This document shows positions 9,529-30,297 of a stretch of 64,000 bases of DNA, piece after piece. The translations under genes were made by a program, and so were the position numbers. Position 1 is the stretch's first letter; every line of letters begins with the position of its first letter. Where the stretch lies: assembly GCF_022899355.1 (NCBI RefSeq), contig NZ_JALJCK010000007.1, forward strand, positions 1 to 64,000, written 5' to 3'. This DNA comes from Shinella yambaruensis. GTDB lineage: Bacteria > Pseudomonadota > Alphaproteobacteria > Rhizobiales > Rhizobiaceae. The notes beneath the pieces were generated by a model, which was not told the origin of the DNA, made no database searches, and saw only the letters and a list, made by a program, of their open reading frames with translations.

Positions 9529-9537
9529 TTGCTATCC

Positions 9538-10634: not shown

Positions 10635-10676
10635 CTTGTAAACGTTTTCTCGCGAATGGTCAATAAACGTTTTCTC
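10635..10676 (-). promoter_or_regulatory. Promoter with two LacI-type operators for the minus-strand enzyme operon
   Basis: Read on the minus strand, TTGACC (10658-10663) and TACAAG (10635-10640) are 17 bases apart and fit -35 and -10 boxes. Two near-identical operators flank them: GAGAAAACGTTTACAA centred at 10643/10644 and GAGAAAACGTTTATTG centred at 10668/10669. The AACGTT core is the classic LacI/GalR-family half-site arrangement around a central CG. Their 25-bp spacing, the overlap with both promoter boxes and the adjacent LacI-family gene make repression in the absence of inducer the natural reading. Confidence 0.75.
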
Positions 10677-10680
10677 GGTA

Positions 10681-11727: not shown

Positions 11728-11825
11728 GGATTTTCTACTGCTCCTGGGTGACCGAAGTCCTTGTCCGCTACTCATGCATAATGGATATATTCTTTCAAAT
11801 TTCAATCACCCCACCAGAATCTGGA

Positions 11826-11868
11826 TTGACAACGAAATTGACAAATGCATTCTGGTAAACGTTTACTA
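11826..11868 (+). promoter_or_regulatory. Promoter and LacI-type operator of the ABC transport operon
   Basis: Two TTGACA boxes (11826-11831 and 11838-11843) precede the palindrome TGGTAAACGTTTACTA at 11853-11868, whose 12-bp core GTAAACGTTTAC is perfectly symmetric. The core matches the AAACGTTT-type operators in front of the enzyme operon at 10.64-10.68 kb. It lies 55 bases upstream of the binding-protein start and overlaps the -10 position expected for the second TTGACA, so bound repressor would block transcription. Confidence 0.75.
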
Positions 11869-11923
11869 AGCCGTATGAAAGCGGCCACGTCGCGCAATCG
11901 ATAAATTGGGGAGCCTAAAAACG

Positions 11924-13225: not shown

Positions 13226-13239
13226 TCGAAAGCGTGTCA

Positions 13240-13264
13240 CGGGCATGGCTGCCGGCCATGCCCG
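13240..13264 (+). other. Intercistronic hairpin between binding protein and permease genes
   Basis: CGGGCATGGC (13240-13249) pairs perfectly with GCCATGCCCG (13255-13264) around a five-base loop. It lies 15 bases after the binding-protein stop and has no T-run. Such hairpins after the binding-protein gene commonly protect that part of the message and lower permease expression. Comparable hairpins occur at the same position in three other ABC operons of this window. Confidence 0.6.
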
Positions 13265-13285
13265 CCTCCACTGGGGAACTTGAAG

Positions 13286-14233: not shown

Positions 14234-14244
14234 GGAGACCGCCC

Positions 14245-15084: not shown

Positions 15085-15096
15085 GGAATTCTCGAA

Positions 15097-16182
15097 ATGG
15101 CAATCAATATCGATACCGTATACAAGCAGTTCGGTGCGCTGAAGGTCGTCAACGGCGTTTCCGTCGACATCAAGGACGGCGAGTTCTTCGTGATGCTCGG
15201 TCCTTCGGGTTGCGGAAAGACCACGACCCTGCGCATGGTCGCCGGCCTGGAGCTTCCTACAGCCGGTCGCATCAGCATCGATGGCGCCGACATGACCTAT
15301 GCCGAGCCCCGCCACCGCGATATCGCCATGGCGTTCCAGGACTATGGTCTCTACCCGAACATGACGGTCTTCAAGAACATCGAGTTTCCCCTGAAGATCC
15401 GCAAGCTCGACGTTCGCGAGCGTGCGCGCAAGGTGGAGGACACCGCTGAGAAGCTCGGGCTTGGCGAACTGCTCCAGCGCAAGCCGTCCCAGCTTTCGGG
15501 AGGCCAGCGTCAGCGCGTTTCGCTCGCGCGGGCGCTCGTTCGGAACCCCAAGGTATTTCTCATGGATGAGCCGTTGTCCAACCTCGACGCAAAGCTGCGC
15601 GCCGTGATGCGCACGGAAATCAAGAAGCTTGTCACGAACCTCGGCATCACCACGATCTACGTCACGCACGACCAGATCGAGGCGATGGCGATGGCGGACC
15701 GCATCGCGGTCATGAGCAAGGGCAACATGGTCCAGGTGGCGTCGCCGCTCGAAGTCTACGACCGTCCGAAGACACGCTTCGTCGCGGAATTCATCGGGTC
15801 GCCGCCGATGAACCTGTTCCCCGCGCAGATCAAGGCCGGTGGCACCGTTACCTGCATCCTTCCGAACTTTGCCCATTCGCTTTGCGAGGAAGAGCGTGCG
15901 TTCGCGGCGCAGATCGTTGACGGCAAGGGTGGTCTGCTCCTGGGTATCCGGCCGGAGCATCTGGTCGTCGCGAAAGCTGGCGCACAAGGCGCGACCGACG
16001 CGCTCGTCGAACTGGTCGAGCCGCTCGGGCAGACGACCAACATCTATGTCAGCGTAGGTGACGTCCGCTTCGTCATCGTCACCGACAGGACCACGGCGAA
16101 GGCGGGAGACACGATCGGGGTTGTCGCTCCCTCCGACTTGCTGCGTGTTGTGGCCAACGACGACGCCGTGGTGCGCCACTGA
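15097..16182 (+). CDS. ABC transporter ATP-binding protein, UgpC/MsmK type
   Basis: 361 residues. Walker A is GPSGCGKTT (residues about 36-44), the Q-loop lies in AMAFQDYGLYPNM, the signature is LSGGQRQRV, Walker B is VFLMDEPLSNLD and the switch histidine is in VTHDQ. The C-terminal 120 residues form the TOBE/OB regulatory domain of sugar-type importers (GIRPEHL). It energises the two permeases just upstream. It ends 35 bases before the aldehyde dehydrogenase gene, with which it is probably co-transcribed. Confidence 0.92.
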   Translation: MAINIDTVYKQFGALKVVNGVSVDIKDGEFFVMLGPSGCGKTTTLRMVAGLELPTAGRISIDGADMTYAEPRHRDIAMAFQDYGLYPNMTVFKNIEFPLKIRKLDVRERARKVEDTAEKLGLGELLQRKPSQLSGGQRQRVSLARALVRNPKVFLMDEPLSNLDAKLRAVMRTEIKKLVTNLGITTIYVTHDQIEAMAMADRIAVMSKGNMVQVASPLEVYDRPKTRFVAEFIGSPPMNLFPAQIKAGGTVTCILPNFAHSLCEEERAFAAQIVDGKGGLLLGIRPEHLVVAKAGAQGATDALVELVEPLGQTTNIYVSVGDVRFVIVTDRTTAKAGDTIGVVAPSDLLRVVANDDAVVRH

Positions 16183-16217
16183 CCGCCACCGCCGGACTGA
16201 ACTGAAAGGAAATACTG

Positions 16218-17699
16218 ATGACCGTTAGAGAATATGGATTGTGGATCAATGGCAGGTGGCTCAAGACAGCCAATATGGTCGAGCGGACGTCGCCTGCTCA
16301 CGGTGCGTCGCTCGCCCGTTTCGCGGAAGGTGGTAAAGAGGAGGTTGATGCGGCCGTCGCGGCAGCGCGCGCAGCCTTCGACAACCGGTCGGTCTGGTCC
16401 GGCATTCCCGGCTCGGAGCGTGCCAAGGCCATCACCCGCTGGCTTGAGCTGATCGTGCGCGACACCGACAGGCTGGCGACAATCGAGGCGGAGGAAGTCG
16501 GCAAGCCCATCCGCCTCGCGAAGGGCGAGACGGAATGGTCCATCGAGCTTGGGCGTTACGCCGCCGCTCTCGCCTACCAGATTCCGGGCGACCTCGTGAA
16601 CAATATCGGGGACGCGAACCTTGGTCTGGTGAGCCGTGAACCTCGCGGCGTCATCGGCATGATCACGCCGTGGAATTTCCCGCTCGTCACGCTCTTCCAG
16701 AAGCTTCCCTTCGCGCTGGCGGCCGGCTGCACGGTCGTCATCAAGCCGTCGGAGCTGACCGCGGGCACGACGCTTGAGGTCGCTGCGCTCGCCAAGGAGG
16801 CCGGCATTCCGGACGGCGTGATCAATGTCGTGACGGGCTCCGGCCGCACCGTTGGCGAGGCTCTCACGGGCCACCCCGGTGTCGACATGATTTCCTTCAC
16901 GGGTTCGACCGTGGTCGGCAAGCGCATCGCGCAGCGTTGCGCCGAGCAGATGAAACGCGTCGGCCTGGAGCTTGGTGGCAAGGCGGCGAACATCGTCTTC
17001 GCCGACGCCGACGTCGACTCGGCCATCGACGGCATCGCATTCGGTTACATTCTCAACCAGGGTGAAGAGTGCGTTCAGGGGACCCGCCTGCTGATCGAGG
17101 AGTCCATTGCCGACGATTTCATCAGGCAGCTTGTCGAGCGCTCGAGGAAAATCCGTATCGGCCTGCCGGACGACGAACAGGCGGATGTCGGTGCGCTCAT
17201 CCACGAGCAGCACATGGAAAAGGTACTCGGCTACATCAGGACGGGCGTCGAGCAAGGCGCGAAACTGGAGATCGGCGGCGAGCGCCTGACCGGCGACGGT
17301 CTCGGCAAGGGCTACTTCGTCGCTCCGACCATCTTCTCCGGCGTTACGCCGGAAATGACCATCTTCCGCGAAGAGATTTTCGGACCGGTTCTTGCCGTCA
17401 CCACTTTCAAGACCGCGGAGGAAGCGATCAAGCTTGCGAACGACACCAATTACGGACTCGGCAACGGCGTCTGGACGAAGGACATCGACAAGGCGATCCA
17501 GGTCTCGCGCGCACTCAAGAGCGGCACGGTCTACGTCAACACGTTCCTCGAAACCTCGGTTCAGATGCCGTTTGGCGGCTTCAAGGAAAGCGGCCTTGGC
17601 CGCGAGAACGGCATGGATGGCCTGCTTGAGTTCACCGAGGTGAAGTCGACATTCATCAAGCTGGGCAAACGCGGCTACGCATTGCCTCACACGGTCTGA
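16218..17699 (+). CDS. NAD(P)-dependent aldehyde dehydrogenase
   Basis: 493 residues, the usual ALDH length. Visible motifs are TPWNFPLV and KPSE in the cofactor site, FTGSTVVGKRI, the general-base glutamate in LELGGKAANIVFADAD, and the catalytic cysteine in NQGEECVQGTRLL near residue 284. The sequence is of the betaine-aldehyde/semialdehyde dehydrogenase type. In this operon it would oxidise the aldehyde made by the GMC alcohol oxidoreductase encoded in the partner operon; that coupling is inference from shared LacI operators. A strong terminator-like hairpin follows 50 bases after the stop. Confidence 0.92.
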   Translation: MTVREYGLWINGRWLKTANMVERTSPAHGASLARFAEGGKEEVDAAVAAARAAFDNRSVWSGIPGSERAKAITRWLELIVRDTDRLATIEAEEVGKPIRLAKGETEWSIELGRYAAALAYQIPGDLVNNIGDANLGLVSREPRGVIGMITPWNFPLVTLFQKLPFALAAGCTVVIKPSELTAGTTLEVAALAKEAGIPDGVINVVTGSGRTVGEALTGHPGVDMISFTGSTVVGKRIAQRCAEQMKRVGLELGGKAANIVFADADVDSAIDGIAFGYILNQGEECVQGTRLLIEESIADDFIRQLVERSRKIRIGLPDDEQADVGALIHEQHMEKVLGYIRTGVEQGAKLEIGGERLTGDGLGKGYFVAPTIFSGVTPEMTIFREEIFGPVLAVTTFKTAEEAIKLANDTNYGLGNGVWTKDIDKAIQVSRALKSGTVYVNTFLETSVQMPFGGFKESGLGRENGMDGLLEFTEVKSTFIKLGKRGYALPHTV

Positions 17700-17748
17700 C
17701 CATGCGGCGGACGGTCGTCTAAAGCGTTGCTCCTCCCAAGGCAGCCGT

Positions 17749-17790
17749 GGGCTGGTGGTGGCTTCGATCCACCGCCAGCCCATTTTTCTT
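17749..17790 (+). terminator. Rho-independent terminator between aldehyde dehydrogenase and aspartase genes
   Basis: GGGCTGGTGGTGG (17749-17761) pairs with CCACCGCCAGCCC (17769-17781), a 13-bp stem with one G-T pair and a seven-base loop, followed directly by ATTTTTCTT. This is the best intrinsic terminator in the window. It should end or strongly attenuate the transport operon before the aspartase gene that starts 38 bases further on. Confidence 0.8.
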
Positions 17791-17818
17791 CCAGCAAGCT
17801 TGTAGAAGGTTCTTGGAA

Positions 17819-19264
17819 ATGCCCGACATGCTGCCCCTTACTGTCGCCACGCGCCGTGAGCACGACTCCCTTGGCGAAATCGACGTCGATGCCGACGCCT
17901 ATTACGCCGCCCAAACGGCAAGGGCTTTCTCCAATTTCCAGATTTCGGGCATTCCGATCGGGCACTATGCGGTCTTCATCCGGGCGCTGGCCTTCGTGAA
18001 GAAGGCGGCAGCCTTGGCAAATCTGGAACTCGGCGACCTTGACAGGAAGAAGGCGGACGCGATCGTCGCCGCCTGTGACGACATCGCTGGCGGCAAGCTT
18101 GCGGACCAATTCGTCCTCGACGTTTTCCAGGGCGGGGCCGGGACATCGACGAACATGAACGTAAACGAGGTGGTGGCGAACCTCGCCCTGGAACATCTCG
18201 GGCTTCCCAAGGGAAGCTTCGACGTCATCCACCCGAACAACGACGTGAACCTCTCGCAGTCCACAAACGACGTCTATCCCACGGCGATCCGTCTGGCACT
18301 CCTCCTCAGCTACAACAGCCTGTCGAACGAGCTGGCCGGCATCGCGGACACTTTCGAAGCGAAAGCAGCGGAATTCGCCGACATCCTCAAGCTCGGGCGC
18401 ACGCAGCTGCAGGATGCCGTGCCGATGACGTTGGGACAGGAGTTCACGGCCTTCGCCGTGACGTTGAGAGAGGACATCCTTCGGCTCGAGGAGGCGGCCA
18501 GGCTTCTCAAGGAGATCAATCTGGGCGGTACGGCGATCGGAACGGGCATTACCGCCGATCCTTGCTACGCGGCTCTTGCCATAAAAAAACTCGCGGAAGT
18601 GTCGTCGGTCGATGTCGTTCCCGCATCGGACTTTGTCGAGGCTTGCTGGGATACAGGGGCCTTTGTTCTCTTTTCCGGCACCATCAAGCGGACGGCGGTG
18701 AAGCTTTCCAAGATTTCGAACGACCTCAGGCTGCTTTCGAGCGGGCCGCGCGGGGGCTTCGGCGAAATCAACCTGCCGCCGATGCAGCCCGGCTCGTCGA
18801 TCATGCCGGGCAAAGTCAACCCCGTCATTCCCGAAGTGGTCAATCAGGTTGCTTTCCAGGTGATTGGAGCCGACCTCGTCGTAACCCTGGCGGCAGAAGC
18901 AGGTCAGCTCCAGCTCAACGCCTTCGAACCCGTCATCGTCTTCAATCTGCTGCAGTCCATCACGTTGTTGACCAATGCGGTGAGAACCCTCAGGGAAAAG
19001 TGTGTTGTCGGAATCACGGCGAACGAGGCGCGGTGCAGGCAGCATCTCGATGCGGGCACGGCGCTCGCAACTGCGTTGACGTCGCTGATCGGGTACGAGA
19101 AGGTATCCGAGATGGCGAAGGAAATTCTCCGGAGCGGCCGCACCATGAGGGAATTGCTCGACGAGAGCAACACCTTGTCGGCAGACCTGCTCGAGCAGGT
19201 TCTCGATACGAAGGCGCTGACGCGCCCCTCGCGCTTCCGCAATCAGCCGACAAATGGAAAATAG
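17819..19264 (+). CDS. aspA: Aspartate ammonia-lyase (aspartase)
   Basis: 481 residues from the ATG at 17819; the open frame reaches back to 17747 but would run through the terminator stem. The fumarase/aspartase signature GSSIMPGKVNP is present near residue 322, with the aspartase-like continuation VIPEVVNQVAFQVIG and AAEAGQLQLN. The early GGAGTSTNMN and QSTNDVYPTA segments form the rest of the active site. The reaction is L-aspartate to fumarate plus ammonia, feeding the TCA cycle. The similarity to classical AspA is close enough to name, but a related C-N lyase acting on a substituted aspartate cannot be excluded. Confidence 0.85.
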   Translation: MPDMLPLTVATRREHDSLGEIDVDADAYYAAQTARAFSNFQISGIPIGHYAVFIRALAFVKKAAALANLELGDLDRKKADAIVAACDDIAGGKLADQFVLDVFQGGAGTSTNMNVNEVVANLALEHLGLPKGSFDVIHPNNDVNLSQSTNDVYPTAIRLALLLSYNSLSNELAGIADTFEAKAAEFADILKLGRTQLQDAVPMTLGQEFTAFAVTLREDILRLEEAARLLKEINLGGTAIGTGITADPCYAALAIKKLAEVSSVDVVPASDFVEACWDTGAFVLFSGTIKRTAVKLSKISNDLRLLSSGPRGGFGEINLPPMQPGSSIMPGKVNPVIPEVVNQVAFQVIGADLVVTLAAEAGQLQLNAFEPVIVFNLLQSITLLTNAVRTLREKCVVGITANEARCRQHLDAGTALATALTSLIGYEKVSEMAKEILRSGRTMRELLDESNTLSADLLEQVLDTKALTRPSRFRNQPTNGK

Positions 19265-19266
19265 GC

Positions 19267-19926
19267 ATGCTTTATCTCGACCGCTTCAAGACCATCATCT
19301 TCGACTTCGACGGCGTCATTCTTGATTCCGCACGCTTGAAGACCGCGGCGTTTGCGCAGGTGTACGGTTGCGAAGATCCGGAAAAGATCGCTGAAGTCAT
19401 CAAGTACCAGGAACAGCATGGCGGAATTGGCCGACGTCAAAAGTTCGAGTATTTCGAGCGCGAGGTGTTCGGCCGACCCGGCGATGAAGCGAGAGTTGAA
19501 AATCTCTGTGTCCGTTTCGCGGAGATCATCGACGAGGGCATGCTCAATTGCGCGTTTATCCCCGGCGCTGAGGCTCTTCTCGCCCGTCTTGAAAACGAAA
19601 TTCCGATGTACGTCGTCTCGGGAATGCCGGAGGATGATCTCAAGCTGGTAATCGAACGGCGTGGCTTGTCGCGGTATTTCCGAACCGTGTCGGGGTCGCC
19701 CAAGTCGAAGTACGCCGAGTTTCGGAACGTGATGCTGCTGGAGGGCGCCGAAGCCACGGAGTGCCTCGCTGTCGGGGATTCACCCACCGAGTTTCACGCG
19801 GCCCGTAAGATTGGCATCCCGTTTCTGGCGATCGTCGCACCCGATGTGGTTGACCTTTTCCCCGTCGATGTGCAGAAGGCCCCCGATCTCACCGGGTTCG
19901 AGTTCGCCGCCCGTCTGGCGCGGTGA
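19267..19926 (+). CDS. HAD-superfamily hydrolase (beta-phosphoglucomutase/phosphatase-like)
   Basis: 219 residues starting two bases after the aspartase stop. HAD motif I is FDFDGVILDS (residues 12-21), motif II is VVSGMPEDD, motif III the lysine around SPKSKYAEF, and motif IV GDSPTEFHAARKIG. A helical cap domain lies between motifs I and II. It probably removes or transfers a phosphate from a small metabolite. The tight linkage to aspartase suggests shared expression. A truncated MFS transporter gene follows. Confidence 0.87.
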   Translation: MLYLDRFKTIIFDFDGVILDSARLKTAAFAQVYGCEDPEKIAEVIKYQEQHGGIGRRQKFEYFEREVFGRPGDEARVENLCVRFAEIIDEGMLNCAFIPGAEALLARLENEIPMYVVSGMPEDDLKLVIERRGLSRYFRTVSGSPKSKYAEFRNVMLLEGAEATECLAVGDSPTEFHAARKIGIPFLAIVAPDVVDLFPVDVQKAPDLTGFEFAARLAR

Positions 19927-19953: not shown

Positions 19954-20127
19954 ATGATCGCAGCCCACCAAAGGCCATATCTGGCGTTTTTCCTGCTTGC
20001 AATCGCGACCGGTGCGTTCATGGCGCGAATTCCGGACCTCCAGATCGGACAGAGGGCGGCTACCCGCCTCCTGCCGCATCCTGACACTGAAGCACCATAT
20101 GACTCAAAGTCATGGACAAACGAGTAG
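19954..20127 (+). pseudogene. MFS transporter, N-terminal remnant
   Basis: A short frame starts with ATG at 19954 and reads RPYLAFFLLAIATGAFMARI followed by PDLQ, which matches the first transmembrane helix and the following loop of major-facilitator sugar/cyanate-type permeases. After about 30 codons the similarity stops and the frame ends at 20127. The rest of the gene is missing, so this is the left scar of a deletion that now abuts the GMC oxidoreductase promoter. Confidence 0.5.
20099..20113. promoter_or_regulatory. 15-bp palindrome, LysR-type operator (copy 1)
   Basis: ATGACTCAAAGTCAT is a dyad (6-bp arms, 3-bp centre), 83 bases upstream of the GMC oxidoreductase start. The same pattern occurs at 21953-21967 and at 26405-26419, the latter in front of the LysR gene. 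The T-N11-A form is that of LysR-type recognition sites. Confidence 0.65.
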
Positions 20128-20195
20128 GCGTGACTTGATGGGAGGCCTGGTTTCGGCAAGGTAGACAAAAAATCGGGAACGCGGAGTCAGTCGTC

Positions 20196-21803
20196 GTGAA
20201 CAGTGAGAATTTCGATTTCGTGGTCGTCGGCGGCGGGTCCGCCGGGAGCGTTCTGGCCAATCGGCTCAGCGCGCGGAGCGATCGTGTCCTGCTTCTCGAA
20301 GCGGGCGGCTCAGGTCGCGAAATCTCGTATGATCTTCCGTTTCTCGCTGCCAAGCTGTTCTCGTTCAAGCGCAACAACTGGGCGTACAACTGTGTACCAC
20401 AGAAGAACATGAATGGGCGGACCCAGTGCTTTCCGCGGGGGAAGATGCTCGGCGGCTCCTTCATCTTCAATGGCGCACAGTACATTCGGGGCAATCCCTC
20501 TGATTTCGACACCTGGCGGCAGCTCGGGAATCCGGGCTGGTCGTTCGAAGACGTTCTCCCTTACTTCAGGAAATCCGAGAAGTATTTCGGGGGCGACAAC
20601 GCCTTCCACAGCACGCGTGGCCCGATGCCGGTCTCCAAGCCGCCGATGGTCAGTGAATTGACCATGGCCTACCTGAAGGCTTGCCAGCAGGCCGGCTATC
20701 CGCTGAACAACGATTTCAACGGCGCTTCTCAGGAGGGATTCGGAGTTTACGACTTCAATATCGCCGACGGACGCCGCCAGACGACGGCGAAGACGTTCCT
20801 CCGCCCCGCCATGAGCCGGCCGAACCTCAAGGTCGAGGTGAACGCGAACGTCCACAAGGTGATCGTTGAGAACGGCGAGGCCGTGGCCGTCGAGTATGAA
20901 AAGGGCGGAACGACCCATCGCGTGCGGGCGAACCGCGAGATCGTCCTGGCCGCCGGGTCATTCAATTCCCCCAAGATCCTGATGCTTTCAGGGATCGGGG
21001 ATCAGGAGGCGCTGGGCAAGCTCGGCATCTCTCCGGCGAGGCATCTTCCGGGCGTCGGCGCCAACCTGCAGGACCATGTGAACGTGTCGGTGGCCCACAG
21101 CTCAACGAGGCCCGTTTCGATGGCATCCTCGCTACGCATCCACACGCTGACCCTGGCGATGGTGAACAGCCTGGTCTTCAGGAGGGGGCAGGTCTCGCAG
21201 AGTCCCTTGGAAGCGGGAGGCTTCTTCAGCATGCAACACGGCGTCGAGGCTCCCGAGTGCCAGGCTGTATTCATCCCGTACTATCCGGGGCAGGGCCTCA
21301 AGATCTGGATGCCCTGGGCGGATAAGCTGGAAGGGCACTCCTACGTCGTGCATGTGTGGCCGAACCGGCCCGAAAGCCGCGGGAAAATGTGGCTGGAGTC
21401 CGCCGACCCCAGGGACGCTCCGGTGTTCGATCCGAATTTCCTCTCGTCCGAGTACGACATGGCGATCACCCGCGAGGCCATCCGCGTAACCCGGAAGATT
21501 TTCGCGCAAGAAGCCTTCGAACCCTACCGTGGGCCGGAACTGACCCCCGGCGCGGATGTCAGGTCGGACGTCGAGCTCGACGCCTACATCCGCAGCACAT
21601 CGGGTATCGGTCACCATACGTGCGGCACCGCAAAGATGGGGCAGGACGCGATGGCTGTCGTCGACGAGAAGCTGCGCGTTCATGGCATCTCGAAACTGCG
21701 CGTTGCCGATGCGTCGATCATGCCGACGATGGTAAGCGGGAACACGAACGCCGCGACCATAATGATCGCCGAAAAGGCCGCAGACATGATGCTCGCTACA
21801 TAG
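20196..21803 (+). CDS. GMC-family FAD-dependent oxidoreductase
   Basis: 535 residues from a GTG start. FAD-binding DFVVVGGGSAGSVLANRLS lies at the N-terminus, then LLLEAGG, GGSFIFNGAQYIRGN (GMC signature 1), AAGSFNSPKILMLSGIG (signature 2), and the active-site histidine in GIGHHTCGTAKMG with the second catalytic position in VSGNTNAATIMIAEK. It oxidises an alcohol; substrate unknown. It is less than half identical in appearance to the GMC enzyme at 7.8 kb and belongs to a different regulon, judging by the upstream LysR-type palindrome. Confidence 0.9.
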   Translation: MNSENFDFVVVGGGSAGSVLANRLSARSDRVLLLEAGGSGREISYDLPFLAAKLFSFKRNNWAYNCVPQKNMNGRTQCFPRGKMLGGSFIFNGAQYIRGNPSDFDTWRQLGNPGWSFEDVLPYFRKSEKYFGGDNAFHSTRGPMPVSKPPMVSELTMAYLKACQQAGYPLNNDFNGASQEGFGVYDFNIADGRRQTTAKTFLRPAMSRPNLKVEVNANVHKVIVENGEAVAVEYEKGGTTHRVRANREIVLAAGSFNSPKILMLSGIGDQEALGKLGISPARHLPGVGANLQDHVNVSVAHSSTRPVSMASSLRIHTLTLAMVNSLVFRRGQVSQSPLEAGGFFSMQHGVEAPECQAVFIPYYPGQGLKIWMPWADKLEGHSYVVHVWPNRPESRGKMWLESADPRDAPVFDPNFLSSEYDMAITREAIRVTRKIFAQEAFEPYRGPELTPGADVRSDVELDAYIRSTSGIGHHTCGTAKMGQDAMAVVDEKLRVHGISKLRVADASIMPTMVSGNTNAATIMIAEKAADMMLAT

Positions 21804-22145
21804 TCACGCACCGCAGCGAAGATCGGAAGAAATGATCGGGTAGGCCGCGACGACGTTTCCGTTGTCGGGGCCGCCGCCGTTTGGCCGCCGACGCAAATTG
21901 AATGGGCATGAGAATTGCTGTGGTCTACAGGGAAATCGAGCGGCGGATTCATATGAGAAAAAGTCATGACGGAATGACCGCGGTTATCTTGAGCGGGCGT
22001 TGGAGCCGCAATAGCCTGCTCCCACCTGATGAAACGGAGGAAGCGATACGTCGCAAGACGTACCTCGCCAGGCAATAAGAACAATCACGAAATCCATGTC
22101 TTCCGCGGCCGAAGGTCGTATTGATTGTCAAAGGGGAATGAACCG
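21804..22145. other. Intergenic region with LysR-type palindrome (copy 2)
   Basis: No convincing gene in this 340-base gap. ATGAGAAAAAGTCAT at 21953-21967 repeats the operator pattern seen at 20099 and 26405. AAAGGGG at about 22132-22138 serves as ribosome binding site of the binding-protein gene. The distance from palindrome to start codon (about 180 bases) leaves room for a long leader. Confidence 0.55.
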
Positions 22146-23219
22146 ATGAAAAGAACTATCTCCGCCGCTCTGCTGTCGGCTGCCGCGCTCTTCAGCTCCG
22201 TCCCCGCGAAGGCCGCCGAGCCGTCCGGCACGGTCTACCTCCTGGTCCCGAACGTCACGACCAATCGCTGGGCGAAGTTCGACATTCCGAACATGACCGA
22301 AGCGATGAAAACCTATGCCCCCGGCGTGGAGCTCAAGGTTCTGAACGCGAACGACGACATGCAGCAGCAGGTGTCCCAGGCCGAATCCGCCCTGGCGAGC
22401 GGCGCGCTGGGCATCATCCTAGTGTCCGTCGACCCACCCCGTTCCGCAAGCATCCTGGCGAGGGCCGAAGCCGATGGCGTCCACGTCGTGACCTACGCGC
22501 ACGACCCGGGTCCGGGACCGGTCTCCTACCACGTCTCCGTCCCCTTCAGCGACATCGGTGAGGCTCAGGGTAAATACCTGGCCGAGAACCTGCCGGATCA
22601 TCGTCCTGTCCGGCTCGCCTACATGCTGGGTGACCCCAAGTTCGCCTTCTACCCGGAGCAGATGAAGGGCTTTGACAAATACCTCAAGCCACTCATCGAC
22701 AATGGCACTGTCGAAGTCGTCTGCCAAGCCGATGCGCTACTGTATCTGGCTGCGAACGCGCAGAAAAACATGGAGCAGTGCCTGACCAAGACCAACAACG
22801 AGGTGGACGGCGTGGTCGTCATGAACGACGACACCGGCGGTGGCGTTATCGCCGCATTGAGCGCGCAGGATCTCGTCGGCAAGGTCAAGGTTTACGGTGG
22901 ATACGATGCCACCCTCGAGGGTATTCAGCGCGTGCTTCTTGGCTGGCAGGCCGCCGACATGGCGCCGCCTTACAAGCAAATGGCCGATGCAGCCATCCAA
23001 CTGATCGTTTCCAAGGTCAAGGGCGAGGAAGCTCCGGCGGGCATCGTCAACGGGAACTGGCCCAACAACTTCACCGAGGGCGGCGTCCCCGCCCGGCTTG
23101 AACCGAATGTGTTCATCACCACGGATAATGTGCAGGAAACCGTGATCGACGCCGGACTTTTCACGAAGGAAGAGCTGTGTGGCGGCATCGGAAAAGATGC
23201 CGACTTCTGCAAGAACTGA
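22146..23219 (+). CDS. Sugar-type ABC transporter substrate-binding protein (type 1 periplasmic-binding fold)
   Basis: 357 residues from the ATG at 22146. A Sec signal peptide (KRTISAALLSAAALFSSVPA, cut near AKAAE) is followed by a Peripla_BP_4-type domain: QQVSQAESALASGALGIIL, then VDPPRSASILARAEADGVHV, then VVMNDDTGGGVIAALSAQDL. Relatives bind xylose, ribose or fructose, but also other small polar molecules. The mature protein has cysteine pairs near the C-terminus (EELCGGIG and ADFCKN). It is the first gene of a three-gene importer. Confidence 0.88.
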   Translation: MKRTISAALLSAAALFSSVPAKAAEPSGTVYLLVPNVTTNRWAKFDIPNMTEAMKTYAPGVELKVLNANDDMQQQVSQAESALASGALGIILVSVDPPRSASILARAEADGVHVVTYAHDPGPGPVSYHVSVPFSDIGEAQGKYLAENLPDHRPVRLAYMLGDPKFAFYPEQMKGFDKYLKPLIDNGTVEVVCQADALLYLAANAQKNMEQCLTKTNNEVDGVVVMNDDTGGGVIAALSAQDLVGKVKVYGGYDATLEGIQRVLLGWQAADMAPPYKQMADAAIQLIVSKVKGEEAPAGIVNGNWPNNFTEGGVPARLEPNVFITTDNVQETVIDAGLFTKEELCGGIGKDADFCKN

Positions 23220-23231
23220 ACCGGACAGACT

Positions 23232-23256
23232 AGGAGCTGTCGATAAGGCGGCTCCT
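23232..23256 (+). other. Intercistronic hairpin after the binding-protein gene
   Basis: AGGAGC (23232-23237) pairs with GCTCCT (23251-23256) in the 63-base gap between the binding-protein and ATPase genes. The stem is short, but its placement is the same as in the other ABC operons of this window. Confidence 0.4.
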
Positions 23257-23282
23257 CAAAAACGCATAATGGGGTCCTAGTC

Positions 23283-24083
23283 ATGAACAAGAACGAACCT
23301 CCGATCTTGGAGGTCCGAAACGTCTCGATACGTTTCGGAGGGGTCGCTGCCCTCACCAGGGTATCGCTCAGCATATGGCCGGGTGAAGTCGTCGCTCTGG
23401 TCGGCGACAACGGCGCGGGCAAGAGTACGCTGGTCAAGACGATCTCCGGCATCCAGTCCCCCGACGAGGGCGAAATCCTTGTGTCAGGAGCGGCGCTCTC
23501 ACTGAAAAGCCCACATGACGCGAACGCGGCGGGTATCCAGACGGTCTACCAAGACCTCGCCATCTGCGACAATCTCGACACGGTACAGAACCTCTTCCTC
23601 GGCCGCGAATACTATCACCCGTGGTACAAAGGGCGGCGGCTTGACCGTGCAGGCATGGAAGCGCGCGCGAAAGAGGTGCTGGCCAACCTCGACGTAAAGA
23701 TCCGCGACATCAACGTGCCGGCGAACTCGCTGTCGGGAGGGCAGCGTCAATCAGTGGCGATCTGCCGTTCGATCCTGACCGACCCCCGTGTCGTGCTCCT
23801 CGACGAGCCCACGGCCGCGCTCGGCGTTGCGCAGCGCAAGCAGGTTCTGAACCTGATCGAGCGACTTCGCGCTCAGGGACGGGCGGTCATCGTGATCAGC
23901 CATGATCTGGGCGATGTCCAGCAGGTCGCCGATCGGGTCGTGGTCTTGCGACTTGGCAACAAGGTGGCGGAAGTCAGCCGCGGGAGCTACACCCGTGAAG
24001 AGTTGGTCGGCGCCATCACCGGGATGATCAGCAACGAGGAAATGGCTGCACTTTCGCGTCGTGAGGGGGTGTCCCATGTCTAA
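23283..24083 (+). CDS. ABC transporter ATP-binding protein, single-domain sugar type (FrcA/XylG-like)
   Basis: 266 residues with one nucleotide-binding domain only, like FrcA of the rhizobial fructose importer and unlike the double-domain RbsA. Walker A is GDNGAGKST (about residue 43), the signature LSGGQRQ, Walker B VVLLDEPTAAL and the switch histidine is in VISHD. It energises the permease encoded next, whose start overlaps its last eight bases. Confidence 0.92.
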   Translation: MNKNEPPILEVRNVSIRFGGVAALTRVSLSIWPGEVVALVGDNGAGKSTLVKTISGIQSPDEGEILVSGAALSLKSPHDANAAGIQTVYQDLAICDNLDTVQNLFLGREYYHPWYKGRRLDRAGMEARAKEVLANLDVKIRDINVPANSLSGGQRQSVAICRSILTDPRVVLLDEPTAALGVAQRKQVLNLIERLRAQGRAVIVISHDLGDVQQVADRVVVLRLGNKVAEVSRGSYTREELVGAITGMISNEEMAALSRREGVSHV

Positions 24084-25299
24084 GCAGTTATCCGCCTTTA
24101 CCACGTTCGCCAATCCCGCCCCTCAGGAAACACCGAAAATGAAGCTTGACGCTGTCTTGGGAGCACTGGCGACGCGGTATCGTATGCTGCCCGTTCTTCT
24201 CGCGCTCGTCCTCATCTGGGCCTACTTCGCGTGGGCGAACCCCCTATTCCTCAGCCCAAGGAACTTGTCGAACCTTTCGCTGCAGATCGTGACGACCGGC
24301 ATCGTGGCGCTTGGCCTCATGTTCGTGCTGGTCATCGGTGAGATCGACCTGTCCGTCGCCGCGACCGGCGCGGTATCGGCCGCGATTACGGCTGGAATGG
24401 CGGTCAACCAAGGGTTCGACACCGTGACGGCCGTCGCCGTCGGTCTCTTGATCGGTGCGGCGATTGGCTGTGTACAAGGGCTGGTGATCACCTATTTTCG
24501 AGCGCCTGCTTTCATCGTGACGCTCGGCACGTCTCTTATCCTCCAGGGCATCCTCCTCGATCTCCTGCCCGCCAGCTCGAACCTGATTTCACTGGTCGGT
24601 CAGCCTCTCGGGAAGGTCGCGACGATTTATCTTCCGGGTCTCGTCAGCGTGGCTCTGCTCGCCGTCGTCATAGCGCTTGGCCTCGTCTTCAGTCTGCAGT
24701 CTTACGCCGCCAAGAAGCGCAACGCGCTTCCCGCGTCGTTCCTGTGGTCCGTCGTCGCTCCGGCCGTCTCGCTCGCAATCGTCGGTACCGTTGTCATTGC
24801 CGTCTTCAGTTCATACAGAGGCGTTCCGCTTCTCGTCGCGTTCCTGCTCGGATTGCTCGGTTTCTTCGCCTACGTGACGACCCAGACCCGCTTTGGCGTC
24901 TACCTGTACGCCATCGGCGCGAATGCGGAAGCCGCCCGCCGCGCGGGTATCTCGGTCAAGTTTCTGCGGGTGACGGCGTTTACGCTGACAGGAATTTTCG
25001 CGGCGCTCGGCGGCATGATTGCGGCGGGGCGGGTTCTCGGCGTATCACCCGATTCCGCCGACACGACACTCCTTCTCGAGGCGATCGCCGCCGCGGTCAT
25101 CGGCGGCGTCAGCCTCTTCGGGGGCAGGGGATCGGTCTGGGCCGCTCTGACCGGCGCGCTGGTGATCGGCAGCGTCTCGAACGGCATGCTCCTCATCAAC
25201 GCCTCGACCCAGACACGCCTTGAGGTGCAGGGCGCGATCCTGACTCTGGCCGTCATCCTTGACGCCTATTTGTCCCGTAAAGCCAACAGGGGGCGTTGA
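24076..25299 (+). CDS. Sugar-type ABC transporter permease (XylH/RbsC-like)
   Basis: 407 residues from the ATG at 24076, overlapping the ATPase gene. About ten or more hydrophobic segments are visible. The BPD_transp_2 family marks are GEIDLSVAATGAVSAAITAG, YAIGANAEAARRAGI (ATPase-coupling loop) and AAAVIGGVSLFGGRGS. The length and the extra hydrophobic block in the middle resemble XylH rather than RbsC. It probably works as a homodimer. A terminator-like hairpin follows at 25.36 kb. Confidence 0.92.
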   Translation: MSKQLSAFTTFANPAPQETPKMKLDAVLGALATRYRMLPVLLALVLIWAYFAWANPLFLSPRNLSNLSLQIVTTGIVALGLMFVLVIGEIDLSVAATGAVSAAITAGMAVNQGFDTVTAVAVGLLIGAAIGCVQGLVITYFRAPAFIVTLGTSLILQGILLDLLPASSNLISLVGQPLGKVATIYLPGLVSVALLAVVIALGLVFSLQSYAAKKRNALPASFLWSVVAPAVSLAIVGTVVIAVFSSYRGVPLLVAFLLGLLGFFAYVTTQTRFGVYLYAIGANAEAARRAGISVKFLRVTAFTLTGIFAALGGMIAAGRVLGVSPDSADTTLLLEAIAAAVIGGVSLFGGRGSVWAALTGALVIGSVSNGMLLINASTQTRLEVQGAILTLAVILDAYLSRKANRGR

Positions 25300-25362
25300 C
25301 TTTCATGGATGCGGCGTGCTCCCCAAGCCGCATCTTGACGCTGGGGTCGCCACACGCCCGAA

Positions 25363-25390
25363 AAAGGGGTGCAAAAGGCGGCCCCTTTCT
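25363..25390. terminator. Bidirectional terminator between ABC operon and LysR gene
   Basis: AAAGGGG (25363-25369) pairs with CCCCTTT (25382-25388). Read on the minus strand the stem is followed by a run of five T, and on the plus strand by TTTCTT. It sits between the convergent permease and LysR genes, where a two-way terminator is expected. Confidence 0.6.
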
Positions 25391-25424
25391 TGTCGGCGAA
25401 GCGGTGTCCAGGCGCGCCGCCCTC

Positions 25425-26390
25425 CTAACGCATCAACTGTAAGGTTTGCTCGGCTGTTCGCTTGGCTTCGGCTCTGAGGAACGTGCGGAACTTTTGCACA
25501 CCGGGCTTACTGCGCTTTCCCTTTGGATAGACCAGGTAGTAGCGCCAGGGCGTGGGCACCGGGACGCTGTGAAGCAGGACCAAGCGCCCGGACGTGAGCT
25601 CGTCGATGACCATGAAAGGCGGCATCAGGATTGCACCGAGGCCTGAGATCGCTGCCTCGATCCCCATCTGGTATTGCTCGAAACGCGGCCCCTGGTTCGG
25701 TTGGGGATGATCGATCCCGACATCCTTGAACCACTCGCGCCAAGCGGTCGGCCTGTGCGTGTGCTGGATCAGCGTGAGTTCGAACAGGAGTCGGGCATTT
25801 GGCACCACGCCCTTTCTGATCAGAACGGGCGTGCACATCGGCACGAGGACCTCGTCCATGATCAGTTCCGACAGGCTGCCCGGCCAGGCTTCGCTGCCGT
25901 AGTGGATCGCCGCGTCGATGTTGCTTCCCTCGAATTCGAAATGACCGATTCTGCCCGTCACCGAGATGTCGATCGTCGGGTTCTGCCTGAGGAACCTTAT
26001 CAGGCGGGGGGCCAGCCAGCGGCTCCCGAGGCTAGGGAGCGTTGCGATGTTCAGGGATTCGTGAGCGCTCTTGTAGGTCGCCAGCCTTAGCGTTGCGGCG
26101 CCGAGCTCGCTGAGAAGAGTGGAAACCTCCTCGAAATACGCCGCGCCGGATTCGGTAAGCACGAGCCCGTGACCGGTACGCTCGAACAGCGGTGTATCGG
26201 TGATCTCTTCGATGGAACGCACCGCGCGGCTCACACCGCTTTGCGTAATGCCGAGCTCTTCCGCCGCCCGGGAAAAGCTTTTGTATTGTGCCGCTAGGAT
26301 GAATGCCCTGAGCCCTGTCAGCGACGGCAGGTTACCCTCGCGCTCGATGGCATCGATCGGTGTGGAACTATCCGTTCCTGCACGCTTCAT
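25425..26390 (-). CDS. LysR-family transcriptional regulator (GcvA-like)
   Basis: 321 residues. The HTH is in LRAFILAAQYKSFSRAAEEL followed by GITQSGVSRAVRSIEE; the ligand domain has NIATLPSLGSRWLAPRLIRF and VTGRIGHFEFEGSNIDAAIHYG, a pattern of GcvA-type regulators. It is divergent from the two amidohydrolase genes, with the 15-bp palindrome of this regulon at 26405-26419 in the shared promoter. The same palindrome stands before the GMC gene and near the ABC operon, so it is the likely common regulator. The inducer is unknown. Confidence 0.92.
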   Translation of the reverse strand: MKRAGTDSSTPIDAIEREGNLPSLTGLRAFILAAQYKSFSRAAEELGITQSGVSRAVRSIEEITDTPLFERTGHGLVLTESGAAYFEEVSTLLSELGAATLRLATYKSAHESLNIATLPSLGSRWLAPRLIRFLRQNPTIDISVTGRIGHFEFEGSNIDAAIHYGSEAWPGSLSELIMDEVLVPMCTPVLIRKGVVPNARLLFELTLIQHTHRPTAWREWFKDVGIDHPQPNQGPRFEQYQMGIEAAISGLGAILMPPFMVIDELTSGRLVLLHSVPVPTPWRYYLVYPKGKRSKPGVQKFRTFLRAEAKRTAEQTLQLMR

Positions 26391-26404
26391 CGTCTTTCCG
26401 CCTT

Positions 26405-26419
26405 ATGACTTTTCGTCAT
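26405..26419. promoter_or_regulatory. 15-bp palindrome, LysR-type operator (copy 3)
   Basis: ATGACTTTTCGTCAT has perfect 5-bp arms around TTTTC, only 15 bases before the LysR start on the minus strand and 48 before the amidohydrolase start on the plus strand. The position is typical for autoregulation plus divergent activation. Confidence 0.65.
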
Positions 26420-26466
26420 GGAGACACGACTTCGTTCGTATTGTCAATCAAGCCCGGCAACGCAAA

Positions 26467-27492
26467 ATGGCTCACGAACGGACAGTTCGTGGTTGGACGA
26501 GTGCGATGGATATGAGAAGCGAAAAGGCGGGGGTGCACGGCCTTCCAGCAGGAAACGTGGATGAGGCGAAGTCATATCGGCTCAGAATTTTCGATCCGCA
26601 TCATCATCTCTGGGACCTGAAACAGCACCGATATCCGTGGATGGACCCGGGCACTGCATCAATCGTCGGCGACCCGGCGCCCATCCGGAAAAACTATCTG
26701 GCGAAGGACTACCTCGCAGACACCTGGGATTTCGACTTGATCGGCACGGTGCATCTCGATGGTGGATTTGATCCGTGGAATCCGGTCGGCGAAACGCGGT
26801 TCGTCCAGGAAATTCACGAGAAGAGCGGCTTCCCCAACGCCATCGTCGGCCAGGTCGCGCTCGACAACCCGAAGGCCGTCGAACTTATAGAGGCCCACAT
26901 GGCGGCATCGCCCCTGTTGAGGGGCATCCGTCACATCGTGGCGTGGCATCCGGACCGCCGGCTGAGTTACGTCGATAGAAGTAACTACCTTAGAGATGAA
27001 AGGTGGCTGCGCAATTTCGGCAAGCTCGCCGACTACGCCCTTTCCTTCGACGCCCAGGTCTATCCGCATCAGATGGAAGACCTCGCGTCGATCGCGAGAA
27101 CCCATACCGGAACCCCGATCATCGTCAACCAGGCGGGTATGCCGGATGGATTGATAACCGGCGATTTTTCAGGCTGGAAGGCGGGAATGCGAACTCTTTC
27201 AGCCTGTCACAACGTTTCCGTCAAGATTTCCGGCTTCGGCATGTTGAAGCCGAAATGGACAGTGAAGGATGTCAGACCTTTGATCGCCGAGCTCGTCGAT
27301 CTTTTCGGTCCGCCCCGCCTGATGTTCGCGAGCAACTTTCCCGTCGATAAGCTTTTCCGTTCTTTCAAGGACATTTACCACGACTACGCGGAATGCGTGC
27401 ATTTGCTTTCCGAACCGGAGCGAGAGGCAATGTTCAGCCGCACGGCCATCAAATCCTACCGACCAGTTTTGCCAGATGTCATCAGAAAGTGA
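26467..27492 (+). CDS. Amidohydrolase family 2 protein (fuconolactonase/TIM-barrel metal hydrolase)
   Basis: 341 residues from the ATG at 26467. Methionines at 26506 and 26512 are alternatives nearer the domain, and the upstream reach to 26200 is antisense to the LysR gene. The metal-binding start of the barrel is FDPHHHLWDL, followed by RGIRHIVAWH, VKISGFGM and the last-strand FASNFPVDKL with the catalytic aspartate region. Members hydrolyse lactones or decarboxylate/hydrolyse ring compounds. It is the first gene of a two-gene plus-strand unit under the LysR regulator. Confidence 0.85.
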   Translation: MAHERTVRGWTSAMDMRSEKAGVHGLPAGNVDEAKSYRLRIFDPHHHLWDLKQHRYPWMDPGTASIVGDPAPIRKNYLAKDYLADTWDFDLIGTVHLDGGFDPWNPVGETRFVQEIHEKSGFPNAIVGQVALDNPKAVELIEAHMAASPLLRGIRHIVAWHPDRRLSYVDRSNYLRDERWLRNFGKLADYALSFDAQVYPHQMEDLASIARTHTGTPIIVNQAGMPDGLITGDFSGWKAGMRTLSACHNVSVKISGFGMLKPKWTVKDVRPLIAELVDLFGPPRLMFASNFPVDKLFRSFKDIYHDYAECVHLLSEPEREAMFSRTAIKSYRPVLPDVIRK

Positions 27493-27500
27493 ATGCGACA

Positions 27501-28724
27501 ATGAGCCGGACTCTTTTCAAGAACGCGTCGATCCTTGATGTGGACGCAGGAACGCTGCAGGAAGAGCGCGACGTCCTTGTCGATGAAGGGAGAATTTCCG
27601 AAATCGGCGAATCCAGGTTGACCGTCTCGGATGCTAACGTGATCGACGTAAGAGGAAAGGTCCTGATGCCGGGCCTTTGCGACGCCCACGTTCATGTGAT
27701 CGTTCCGATCAACAGCTTTCTGCAACTTACCAAATGGTCCCCATTCTACACCGCGCTGAGAGCTATGCCCATTCTGGAGGGCATGTTGATGCGAGGCTTC
27801 ACAACGGTCCGCGACGCAGGCGGCGCGGATTTCGGCCTTGCCCGCGCGGTCGAGGAAAAACTCATTCCGAGCCCGCGTATCCTCTACAGCGGCAAGGCGA
27901 TCTCGCAGACCGGCGGTCACGGCGATATGCGGGGTGCCGGCGAAACGGAATTCGACAGCCATTATTATGTCCCGAGCCTTGGTCGGGTTGCCGACGGCGT
28001 GGATGCGGTGCGCCTTGCCGCTCGCGACGAAATTCGCCGGGGCGCCAGTCAGGTGAAGCTGATGGTGGGCGGAGGAATCGCCTCCTATACCGACCCGATT
28101 CACTTTGTTCAGTTTTCGGGTGAGGAGATCCGCGCCGCCGTGGAGGAAGCGGAGAATGCGGGCAAATACGTCATGGCCCACGCCTATACAGCGCGCTGTA
28201 TCCAGCACGCCGTCAGGAACGGCGTACGCTCGATCGAGCACGGCAACTTCCTCGACGACGAGACGGCCATATTGATGAAGGAGCGGAACGCCATCCTAGT
28301 GCCGACGCTCGTCGCATATACGACGATGTGGGAGGAGGGCCTGGAAATCGGGATGCCGCCCGAACTCCACGCGAAAATCAAGTATGTTCTGGATATCGGG
28401 TCGAACCAGTTGGAGGTCGCCCGGCGCCACGGCGTAAAGATGGTCTACGGCACCGACCTTATCGGCCCGATCCATCGTCACCAATCCATGGAGTTCAAGA
28501 TTCGCGGCGAGGTGCTCCCGGCGATCGAGGTCATCCGGTCGGCGACCAGTTACGCGGCGGAACTCTTCAAGATGGAAGATCAGATCGGGAGGGTTCGCGC
28601 TGGTCTACGCGCGGACCTTCTTGTCGTCGACGGCAATCCTGTGGAGGACCTCGGTCTTCTTCAAGATTCCTCCAAGCTTTCATTGATCATGAAGGATGGA
28701 GATATCTACCGAAACATCCTGTAA
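27501..28724 (+). CDS. Metal-dependent amidohydrolase (imidazolonepropionase/prolidase-like subgroup)
   Basis: 407 residues starting eight bases after the previous gene. The signature residues of the binuclear amidohydrolases are present: DAHVHV on strand 1, the carbamylatable lysine in ASQVKLMVGGG, a histidine in VMAHAYTARC, another in SIEHGNF, and the aspartate in VYGTDLIGP. The C-terminal LRADLLVVDGNPVEDL closes the family's beta-sandwich. The nearest known functions are peptidase- or carboxypeptidase-like hydrolysis of N-acyl amino acids and related cyclic amides. The similarity to functional relatives is complete to the end; the recombination scar begins 14 bases later. Confidence 0.88.
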   Translation: MSRTLFKNASILDVDAGTLQEERDVLVDEGRISEIGESRLTVSDANVIDVRGKVLMPGLCDAHVHVIVPINSFLQLTKWSPFYTALRAMPILEGMLMRGFTTVRDAGGADFGLARAVEEKLIPSPRILYSGKAISQTGGHGDMRGAGETEFDSHYYVPSLGRVADGVDAVRLAARDEIRRGASQVKLMVGGGIASYTDPIHFVQFSGEEIRAAVEEAENAGKYVMAHAYTARCIQHAVRNGVRSIEHGNFLDDETAILMKERNAILVPTLVAYTTMWEEGLEIGMPPELHAKIKYVLDIGSNQLEVARRHGVKMVYGTDLIGPIHRHQSMEFKIRGEVLPAIEVIRSATSYAAELFKMEDQIGRVRAGLRADLLVVDGNPVEDLGLLQDSSKLSLIMKDGDIYRNIL

Positions 28725-28737
28725 GGTGTCCGGGGTT

Positions 28738-28901
28738 AGCCGACGGACCTCGGATGCGAGCAGGCGACTATAGGAAACCTCGCGCAGGGAACCGTAGAGG
28801 ATGAGGATGGGCGACTTGTGTGCCGAGAACGCGGGGCGCAGGGCATCGAGATCGGTCGAGCGTAGATTCTCATTCTGTAATGCGGGGAACGTATCAGGCA
28901 A
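28738..28901 (-). pseudogene. arsH: arsH, 5' fragment
   Basis: From a TTG at 28901 the minus strand reads an ArsH-like N-terminus: DTFPALQNENL, then HKSPILILYGSLREVSYSRL and LASEVRRL. At about 28738 the similarity ends, and the frame continues as antisense of the amidohydrolase 3' end. About 80 percent of arsH is missing. ArsH is an NADPH-dependent flavoprotein of arsenic operons. The cut marks the junction where the catabolic segment joined an ars operon. Confidence 0.7.
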
Positions 28902-29224
28902 CGCGCTTTCCTTCCTGGTCGATAACCTGTTCGCCATCCTCCTTGAAGAATTGATGAGGGCCGGCGTCGCGATGATCGCGTCGAGCAACTGGCTGTCGGT
29001 CAGGTCCGGGTTGTCCTGACCGAGCTCGGCATAGGGTGTACCCTTCTCGCGGATGGCCTCACGAACCGTCAGGCCGGCATCCGCGATCATCGTTGCAAGC
29101 TGCTCGCGCTTCGGCGGATGCTGCAGGTACTCGATAACGATAGGTTCGATCCCGGCGGCGCGGATCAGCACCGCGTGTTGCGGGACGTCCCGCAGGCGGG
29201 GTTGTGGTAGATGGTGACGTCCAT
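28894..29224 (-). pseudogene. arsC: arsC (glutaredoxin-type arsenate reductase), frameshifted and internally deleted
   Basis: The ATG at 29224 starts MDVTIYHNPACGTSRNT, with the catalytic cysteine in ACGTSRN. A one-base loss near 29172 then closes the frame, and the protein continues one frame over as LIRAAGIEPIVIEYLQHPPK. After PALIN the gene jumps to KEDGEQVIDQEGKRVA in another frame. About 30 codons (the usual RPxVVTPLGTRLCRPSE region with the essential arginines) are deleted. Two independent lesions show it is dead. It sits next to arsH and acr3 remnants in operon order. Confidence 0.85.
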
Positions 29225-29226
29225 GG

Positions 29227-29842
29227 TCAGTGCCTTTCGGTAACGGCGGTTCGGGAAACGGCGGGGGCCTCGTACCAGTTCTTGGAGCAGTTCACGGTCC
29301 AGACGACCGAGAGCATCACCGGTACCTCGATCAGCACGCCCACCACGGTCGCGAGCGCGGCGCCCGACTGGAAGCCGAACAGGCTGATGGCGGCGGCGAC
29401 AGCGAGTTCGAAGAAGTTGCTGGCGCCGATCAGCGCCGAGGGGCCGGCAACGCAGTGCCGTTCGCCGGTCATCCGATTGAGAAGATAGGCGAGCCCGGAG
29501 TTCAGGTAGACCTGAACCAGGATCGGCACGGCGAGCAAGCCGATGACGGCGGGCTGGGCGATAATCTCCTCAGCTGGAAGGCGAAGAGCAGAACCAGCGT
29601 CGCAAGGAGCGCTAACAACGAAATGGGCTGGAGCTTTGCGAGAATGCCATCGAGTGCGCGCGTCGTTCCGGCGGCGGATGAGCTACGCAATGATGACGGG
29701 TACGACGATATAGAGGGCAACCGAGAGGACAAGCGTGTCCTACGGCACGGTGATGGCGGAGAGTCCGAGCAGCAAGCCGGCGATCGACGCGAAGGCGATG
29801 ACCATGATCGCATCGTTCAGCGCCACCTGCGACAGCGTGAAC
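29227..29842 (-). pseudogene. acr3: acr3 arsenite efflux permease, C-terminal half with nonsense mutations and frameshifts
   Basis: The minus strand from 29842 reads FTLSQVALNDAIMVIAFASI, then hydrophobic ACR3-family sequence with in-frame TAG codons at 29740-29742 (after SAITVP) and 29683-29685 (after VVPVIIA). It shifts frame near the ALDGILAKLQPISLLALL helix and again after LLFAFQ, and ends with GPSALIGASNFFELAVAAAI and the normal C-terminus at 29227. The first half of the protein is missing. Acr3 exports arsenite from the cytoplasm. With arsC and arsH this is a dead ars operon. Confidence 0.85.
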
Positions 29843-30297
29843 ATCCCAGCCCTCTTCGCCGTCAATGCGCTCATCCTTCTCGACTACGCGACGAAAAGCT
29901 ACAATCCGGGCATGCCTGCGACCTTCTAAAGCGCGCTGCAGTAGGCGAAACTCACATCGGAAACGATCATAGCGAACGATCGAAATGTGCTTCTCGTGCT
30001 TGTTAAGGGCATGGGGCCCTCTGTCGATCCGGGTGAGTGGGCACTTCTGGAGGACAAGTTGCGCGCCGCTGCCGGCCGCCGTTTCAAGCTGACACATAGG
30101 GTCAACAACCATTATGGCTCGACATCCGGCGCCATGTCGCGGGAACTGTGCGGCAAATGGGGCGCCTTCAATCTGGATGGGCGTGTTCGATACTGTGGCG
30201 TCAATCGCCGCTGATCCGGAAATGCCGCCTTTGGACATCATGGTGGTGGGCGATCACAACACCCCGATGTGGTCGCGTGCTGCCGTTCGGCATTTTC
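29843..30297 (+). pseudogene. Sulfatase/LTA-synthase-like membrane enzyme, decayed fragment
   Basis: One plus-strand frame reads ALILLDYATKSYNPGMPATF, then TAA (29927-29929), SALQ, TAG (29942-29944), then AKLTSETIIANDRNVLLVLV and KGMGPSVDPGEW. After NNHYGSTSGAMSREL the frame shifts near 30180 to VASIAADPEMPPLDIMVVGD and HNTPMWSRAA. NVLLVLVxxMG and a late VGDH are marks of membrane-anchored sulfatase-fold enzymes. The two stops replace what look like tyrosine codons. It lies head to head with the acr3 remnant, and the junction is near 29843. The family assignment is from memory of motifs only. Confidence 0.45.

Follow-up and report, generated by a model that had tools for sequence, protein, structure and literature searches.

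Regulators of the LysR type (LysR-type transcriptional regulators, LTTRs) follow a general scheme, outlined in PMC8407307 and PMC4834489, that comprises a recognition site near -65, an activation site at -35, and autorepression. This study analyzed a gene cluster carrying such a regulator in Shinella yambaruensis, within a window of 64,000 bp (positions 1 to 64,000 of contig NZ_JALJCK010000007.1). The cluster consists of a GMC oxidoreductase gene, an ATP-binding cassette (ABC) importer operon, a lysR gene, and, divergent from lysR, the genes of two amidohydrolases, termed AH2 and AH1 here. It resembles a standard LTTR divergent promoter in its T-N11-A dyad, its predicted center at approximately -64, its divergent lysR gene, and the box beside the lysR start, whereas it differs in having three promoters within 9 kb that share an identical 21-base distance from box to TTG, with ATGA as the half-site. 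The domain profiles identified the regulator as LysR-type (PF00126, 71.6 bits; PF03466, 104.1 bits; both above cut-off). Its best family was GcvA (NCBIfam PRK11139), at 267.6 bits and thus under the curated cut-off of 288. The GcvA-type structure PDB 8y6u aligned along the length of the cluster LysR, but its helix reads TQAAVSH, compared with TQSGVSR in the cluster protein, and the gene targets of GcvA-type regulators differ from those predicted for the cluster LysR. The regulatory design is of the ordinary bacterial gene-switch kind, and the cluster is a further case of it. Searching open-licence PMC papers by the spellings of the motif and by the gene combination retrieved no paper on the cluster or the motif.

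From sequence comparison, we consider it highly probable that the GcvA-like LysR switches three promoters through the box ATGA-N7-TCAT, namely those in the gap between lysR and the divergent AH2-AH1 pair, in front of the ABC operon, and in front of the GMC gene. The first-pass annotation had reported three 15-mers in these places, and all three were located in the window sequence: ATGACTCAAAGTCAT at 20099, upstream of the GMC gene; ATGAGAAAAAGTCAT at 21953, upstream of the ABC operon; and ATGACTTTTCGTCAT at 26405, in the gap that separates the LysR gene from the divergently oriented amidohydrolase gene. The gene positions confirmed this arrangement. The elements of the three promoters are as follows.

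20099-20113, plus strand: LysR box ATGACTCAAAGTCAT of the GMC promoter, from motif search and relatives
20120-20124, plus strand: putative third half-site ACGAG, 21 bp from the first half-site; weak in relatives at the GMC promoter
20135-20140, plus strand: -35-like TTGATG of the GMC promoter, 21 bases past the box
21953-21967, plus strand: LysR box ATGAGAAAAAGTCAT of the ABC promoter, from motif search and relatives
21974-21978, plus strand: putative third half-site ATGAC of the ABC promoter, 21 bp from the first half-site
21989-21994, plus strand: -35-like TTGAGC of the ABC promoter, 21 bases past the box
22012-22017, plus strand: -10-like TAGCCT of the ABC promoter, also found in the compared relatives
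26405-26419, plus strand: LysR box ATGACTTTTCGTCAT in the lysR/AH2 gap, 14 bases from the lysR start codon
26426-26430, plus strand: putative third half-site ACGAC in the lysR/AH2 gap, 21 bp from the first half-site
26441-26446, plus strand: -35-like TTGTCA toward AH2; the opposite strand reads TTGACA toward lysR

All three promoters of the window carried the T-N11-A dyad and a distance of exactly 21 bases from the box to the TTG with which a -35-like hexamer begins. Within the lysR/AH2 gap, ATTGTCAAT is usable as a -35 in either direction. The 21-base spacing was noticed first in the window and the relative sequences, and the whole-genome search for the composite (ATGA-N7-TCAT, 21 bases, TTG) was performed afterwards.

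The motif initially proposed, ATGA-N6-GTCAT, occurred in the window at five places (seven strand matches), compared with a mean of 0.37 and a maximum of 3 strand matches in 100 dinucleotide shuffles; the fifth place was 58103-58117 (minus strand). The three reported sites are real. Nevertheless, this frame was rejected as the motif, being both unspecific, with 12 of its 17 places in the 6.87-Mb genome (19 strand matches) outside the window, and too narrow, since there are sites in Rhizobium and Paracoccus that fit it on neither strand (ATGAGTGAAACTCAT, ATGAGCCTGGCTCAT). The strict palindrome ATGAC-N5-GTCAT was found at just two places in the genome, 20099 and 26405. Comparison with the relatives yielded a better candidate motif, ATGA-N7-TCAT, a wider LysR box of the T-N11-A type, and the predicted sites are described better by the composite than by the bare frame. 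Frequent occurrence of the motif elsewhere, which by the first-pass annotation would refute its reading, was seen for the bare frame but not for the composite, which had one further place in the genome beyond the three cluster sites.

Scanning positions 10001-40000 for ATGA-N7-TCAT revealed the three sites and one additional match, as follows.

26561-26575, plus strand: further box match inside AH2, without TTG at +21; probably no operator

This match contradicts the earlier statement that the coding parts contained none. It was rejected as a fourth operator; a TTG at +21 is missing, and the Paracoccus loci show no corresponding match. One and the same 15-mer, ATGAGCCTCTCTCAT (or its complement), occurred five times in the genome (C5:33757, C13:2306, C21:17312, C29:243108, and C34:73454) and twice in genome G014; it is probably a dispersed repeat whose match to the box is fortuitous.

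We then compared the cluster across relatives. Orthologs of the LysR, 98-68% identical, were carried by Shinella, Metarhizobium, Rhizobium, and Paracoccus. They included those of two more genomes from the genus of the window, at 98%, the remaining genus matches being at most 42% identical; six loci (68-98%) out of eight examined, the other two, at 35% and 25%, not being treated as orthologs; and three plasmids (Shinella zoogloeoides, Rhizobium sp. 11515TR, and Paracoccus versutus). The LysR, importer, GMC, and AH1 genes occurred together in all nine loci compared, and ATGA-N7-TCAT was present at the same three promoters in all nine long orthologous loci. The composite occurred at these promoters in 10 of 10 ortholog-bearing genomes or records, accounting for 30 of the 37 matches, with the other seven scattered; these records are not independent, two being Paracoccus versutus strains and several being close relatives. 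The reversed composite pattern had no match in the same 10 genomes or records.

Among 21 genomes of the genus, the three ortholog carriers contained 4, 3, and 3 composite matches, and the 18 genomes without an ortholog contained 13 in total (0-3 each, 0.72 per genome); the reversed composite was found once in the 21, in a genome without an ortholog. In slices of six loci, three composites were present in each, compared with shuffle means of 0.003-0.013 (maximum 1), and the box alone occurred 3-5 times on one strand, compared with means of 0.15-0.26 (maximum 3). The bare frame at 12 places outside the window and the match in coding DNA at 26561 could be taken to mean that the three sites are chance palindromes without function. 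Because the composite recurs in all the ortholog carriers and is scarce in the genus genomes without the ortholog, chance is very unlikely indeed. The shuffle controls point the same way, and Paracoccus carries the same three genes with the composite even though the 60 bases upstream of its boxes match the window at just 22%. In the draws made, which are partial samples of the groups, the ortholog is rare: at E 1e-85, 394 family genomes yielded one further ortholog, 95% identical and located where the Metarhizobium locus lies, and 385 class genomes yielded none.

The promoters were compared using 18 sequences from six loci (the window, L032, L033, L039, L034, and L035), 12 near-duplicates having been left out of the 30 from 10 loci (the window and nine relatives). 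These promoters were selected by the box alone, except for the Rhizobium ABC promoter, at which the TTG-bearing one of two boxes was chosen. All 18 had a TTG at position +36, counted from the start of the box. Agreement of the -35 hexamer with the window was 67-100% in the relatives; the 60 bases upstream of the box agreed at 18-50% in Rhizobium. At the ABC promoter, TTGAGC and TAGCCT, separated by 17 bases, were retained in relatives, with a spacing of 18 bases in Paracoccus. On the basis of the -35- and -10-like sequences, the box center is predicted at approximately -64. A putative third element resembling ATGAC was found at +21 from the box start, with A in 17 of 18 promoters at column +21 and in 16 of 18 at column +24; its mean score of 3.44 of 5 was the highest outside the box. 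Both Rhizobium loci had two additional boxes, the first lying 73 bp downstream from the ABC box, the second approximately 137 bp from the lysR box (L033:14258, L039:22260, L033:9832, and L039:17833), with spacer letters that differ between the strains.

These observations are consistent with a mechanism in which the LysR would bind ATGA-N7-TCAT at the lysR/AH2-AH1 gap, the ABC operon, and the GMC gene, with the predicted box center where LysR recognition sites usually lie. An inducer-bound tetramer may reach through the degenerate third half-site toward the -35, which would explain activation. The box 14 bases from the start codon and the -35-like hexamers overlapping on both strands suggest that lysR may repress itself. 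The inducer would be the compound taken up by the importer or a product derived from that compound.

Several points weigh against this account. The relatives' sites were picked by ATGA-N7-TCAT, so the identity of the arms arises by construction, and what counts is the existence of a match at each promoter. The -10 is poorly retained at the GMC and lysR/AH2 promoters, unlike at the ABC promoter. In Rhizobium and Paracoccus, the GMC promoter has a weak third half-site, and offsets 13 (overlapping the box end) and 36 (overlapping the TTG) score nearly as well as the third half-site, at 3.22 and 3.0. Finally, the assignment of the sites to the cluster LysR is not unique, owing to a second LysR with the same box.

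The second regulator is also GcvA-like (C22:268403-269329, 35% identical to the cluster LysR), has the helix TQSGISR, and has ATGAGTTTTAGTCAT at C22:269332 (L043:1533), directly upstream of its gene. The idea that the box is private to the cluster LysR was consequently dropped. The three sites could be bound by another GcvA-like LysR, such as this one, or by both, given that the two proteins share the TQSG helix and that a 48% homolog of the second LysR also has a box. We regard this as quite improbable. In each of the 10 records, the adjacent LysR is accompanied by the three boxes, whereas a search at E 1e-90 detected the second LysR in three of 151 relatives, with the three-box genomes G003 and G020 not among them. 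The boxes of the second LysR lack the TTG at +21. It also has a different substrate-binding neighbor. A 67% homolog (G038) has no box upstream of its own gene; in that genome, a binding-protein gene at a distance of 7-8 kb is preceded by a box at approximately 200 bp, with one more match there in coding DNA. Regulation by the cluster LysR remains the preferred reading, and computation supports one putative three-promoter regulon. The earlier claim of a single LysR regulon stands as far as the three-promoter box is concerned, being well supported by the relatives and the genus control, but not as a box reserved for one LysR.

The genome contained 23 GcvA-type matches. Two have the TQSG helix, and both have a box within 400 bp upstream; none was found upstream of the other 21 (400 bp scanned for 20, 250 bp for L070), with a near miss, ATGACTTGAGGTTAT, at the non-TQSG gene L052. 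The 27 distantly related GcvA-like loci (L004-L030, which include many mutual orthologs) had one box within 400 bp, at -238 of L009, whose helix is TQGAVSK. Because these numbers are small, a helix code is a lead. A tentative and somewhat doubtful joint reading is that ATGA-N7-TCAT is the operator code of a TQSG[VI]SR clade of GcvA-like LysR proteins and, at the same time, that the cluster is an undescribed catabolic pathway for an amide conjugate, with three identically phased promoters under one LysR. The conjugate would hold an amide-bound amino or imino acid; the cluster itself is located on large replicons of both Rhizobiales and Paracoccus. If the link between the TQSG helix and the box is true, the box of an uncharacterized LysR could be predicted from its recognition helix, which would help in predicting the operators of other such proteins. 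The three-promoter regulon is now testable at exact sites, and the same cluster can be recognized in other genomes by the rule of box, 21 bases, and TTG. The regulon also delimits the genes expected to respond to one inducer, which would help toward finding the substrate of the importer.

The genes of the cluster are as follows.

20196-21803, plus strand: GMC oxidoreductase, GTG start (Pfam GMC_oxred_N, GMC_oxred_C)
22152-23219, plus strand: substrate-binding protein, Peripla_BP_4, distantly XylF-like (family profiles)
23283-24083, plus strand: ABC ATPase, single domain, 266 aa (family profiles)
24076-25299, plus strand: ABC permease, BPD_transp_2 (family profiles)
25425-26390, minus strand: LysR-type regulator, GcvA-like, helix TQSGVSR (family profiles and alignment)
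26506-27492, plus strand: AH2, Amidohydro_2 (family profile); start codon inferred and uncertain
27501-28724, plus strand: AH1, Amidohydro_1, prolidase-like (family profiles and structure-sequence match)

The GMC protein scored under the choline dehydrogenase cut-offs (PRK02106, 592.7 bits against 605; betA, 529.8 against 732.1), and the binding protein scored 148.6 bits against XylF, under its cut-off of 389.55. The annotated alternative start of AH2, 26467, fits the frame but precedes the predicted transcription start.

AH1 aligned over nearly its whole length with the prolidases Sgx9260b/c (PDB 3mkv, 3feq/3n2c) at 395 bits, and scored 254.5 bits against Xaa-Pro dipeptidase NF051886, under the cut-off of 500. 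It carries what we take to be the metal-ligand motifs of Sgx9260-type prolidases, enzymes that presumably prefer N-acyl/Xaa-Pro substrates. PMC10699109 served only to place the relatives of AH1. AH2 is a PF04909 protein distantly like L-fucono-1,5-lactonase (79.7 bits, under the cut-off of 400). AH2 and its relatives read SNFPVD; in known lactonases of the family, the corresponding place presumably holds Asp (SDWP).

The first-pass annotation had envisaged a two-step cleavage of a single cyclic or N-acylated compound by the two amidohydrolases. The likeness of AH1 to the prolidases, the distant lactonase likeness of AH2, and the location of both genes behind the same box are in its favor, and amide cleavage, suggested by AH1 alone of the two, appears plausible for that enzyme. 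Nevertheless, the scheme is speculative and, in our view, unlikely. AH1 reached none of the cut-offs among the best 25 of 62 families, and AH2 did not reach that of the one family compared. AH2 was present in seven of nine loci and absent from both Rhizobium clusters, with just 40-43% homologs elsewhere in those records. Because AH2 is only distantly lactonase-like and is absent from two of nine loci, hydrolysis in two obligatory steps is not supported.

The neighboring genes at 7783-19926 encode a GMC paralog, a proline-racemase-like protein, a LacI regulator, a CUT1-type importer, an aldehyde dehydrogenase, an aspartase-like lyase, and a HAD hydrolase, and had no box in the part covered by the 10001-40000 scan. 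In Rhizobium, this gene set adjoins the LysR cluster; the same holds for Paracoccus, except that the lyase and the HAD protein were not detected there at E 1e-20. At that place, Paracoccus versutus has an aspartate dehydrogenase (L040:12974-13768, above two cut-offs), and Shinella and Rhizobium have the aspartase-like lyase (window 17819-19264). Together with AH1, these enzymes hint at a conjugate that may release aspartate or an imino acid. The second GMC oxidoreductase, approximately 41% identical to the first, lies in 7783-10590 (minus strand) beside the proline-racemase-superfamily protein, whose two catalytic positions carry the residues MSG and PCGTG.

Past the cluster lies an arsenic-resistance stretch at approximately 28683-29843, in which one open reading frame matched ArsC weakly and 28950-29843 is similar to arsB/arsC sequences carried by many plasmids. 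The window also contained three additional GcvA-type LysR genes, at 58199-59170, 61795-62685, and 62717-63625, all on the minus strand, the last two being adjacent.

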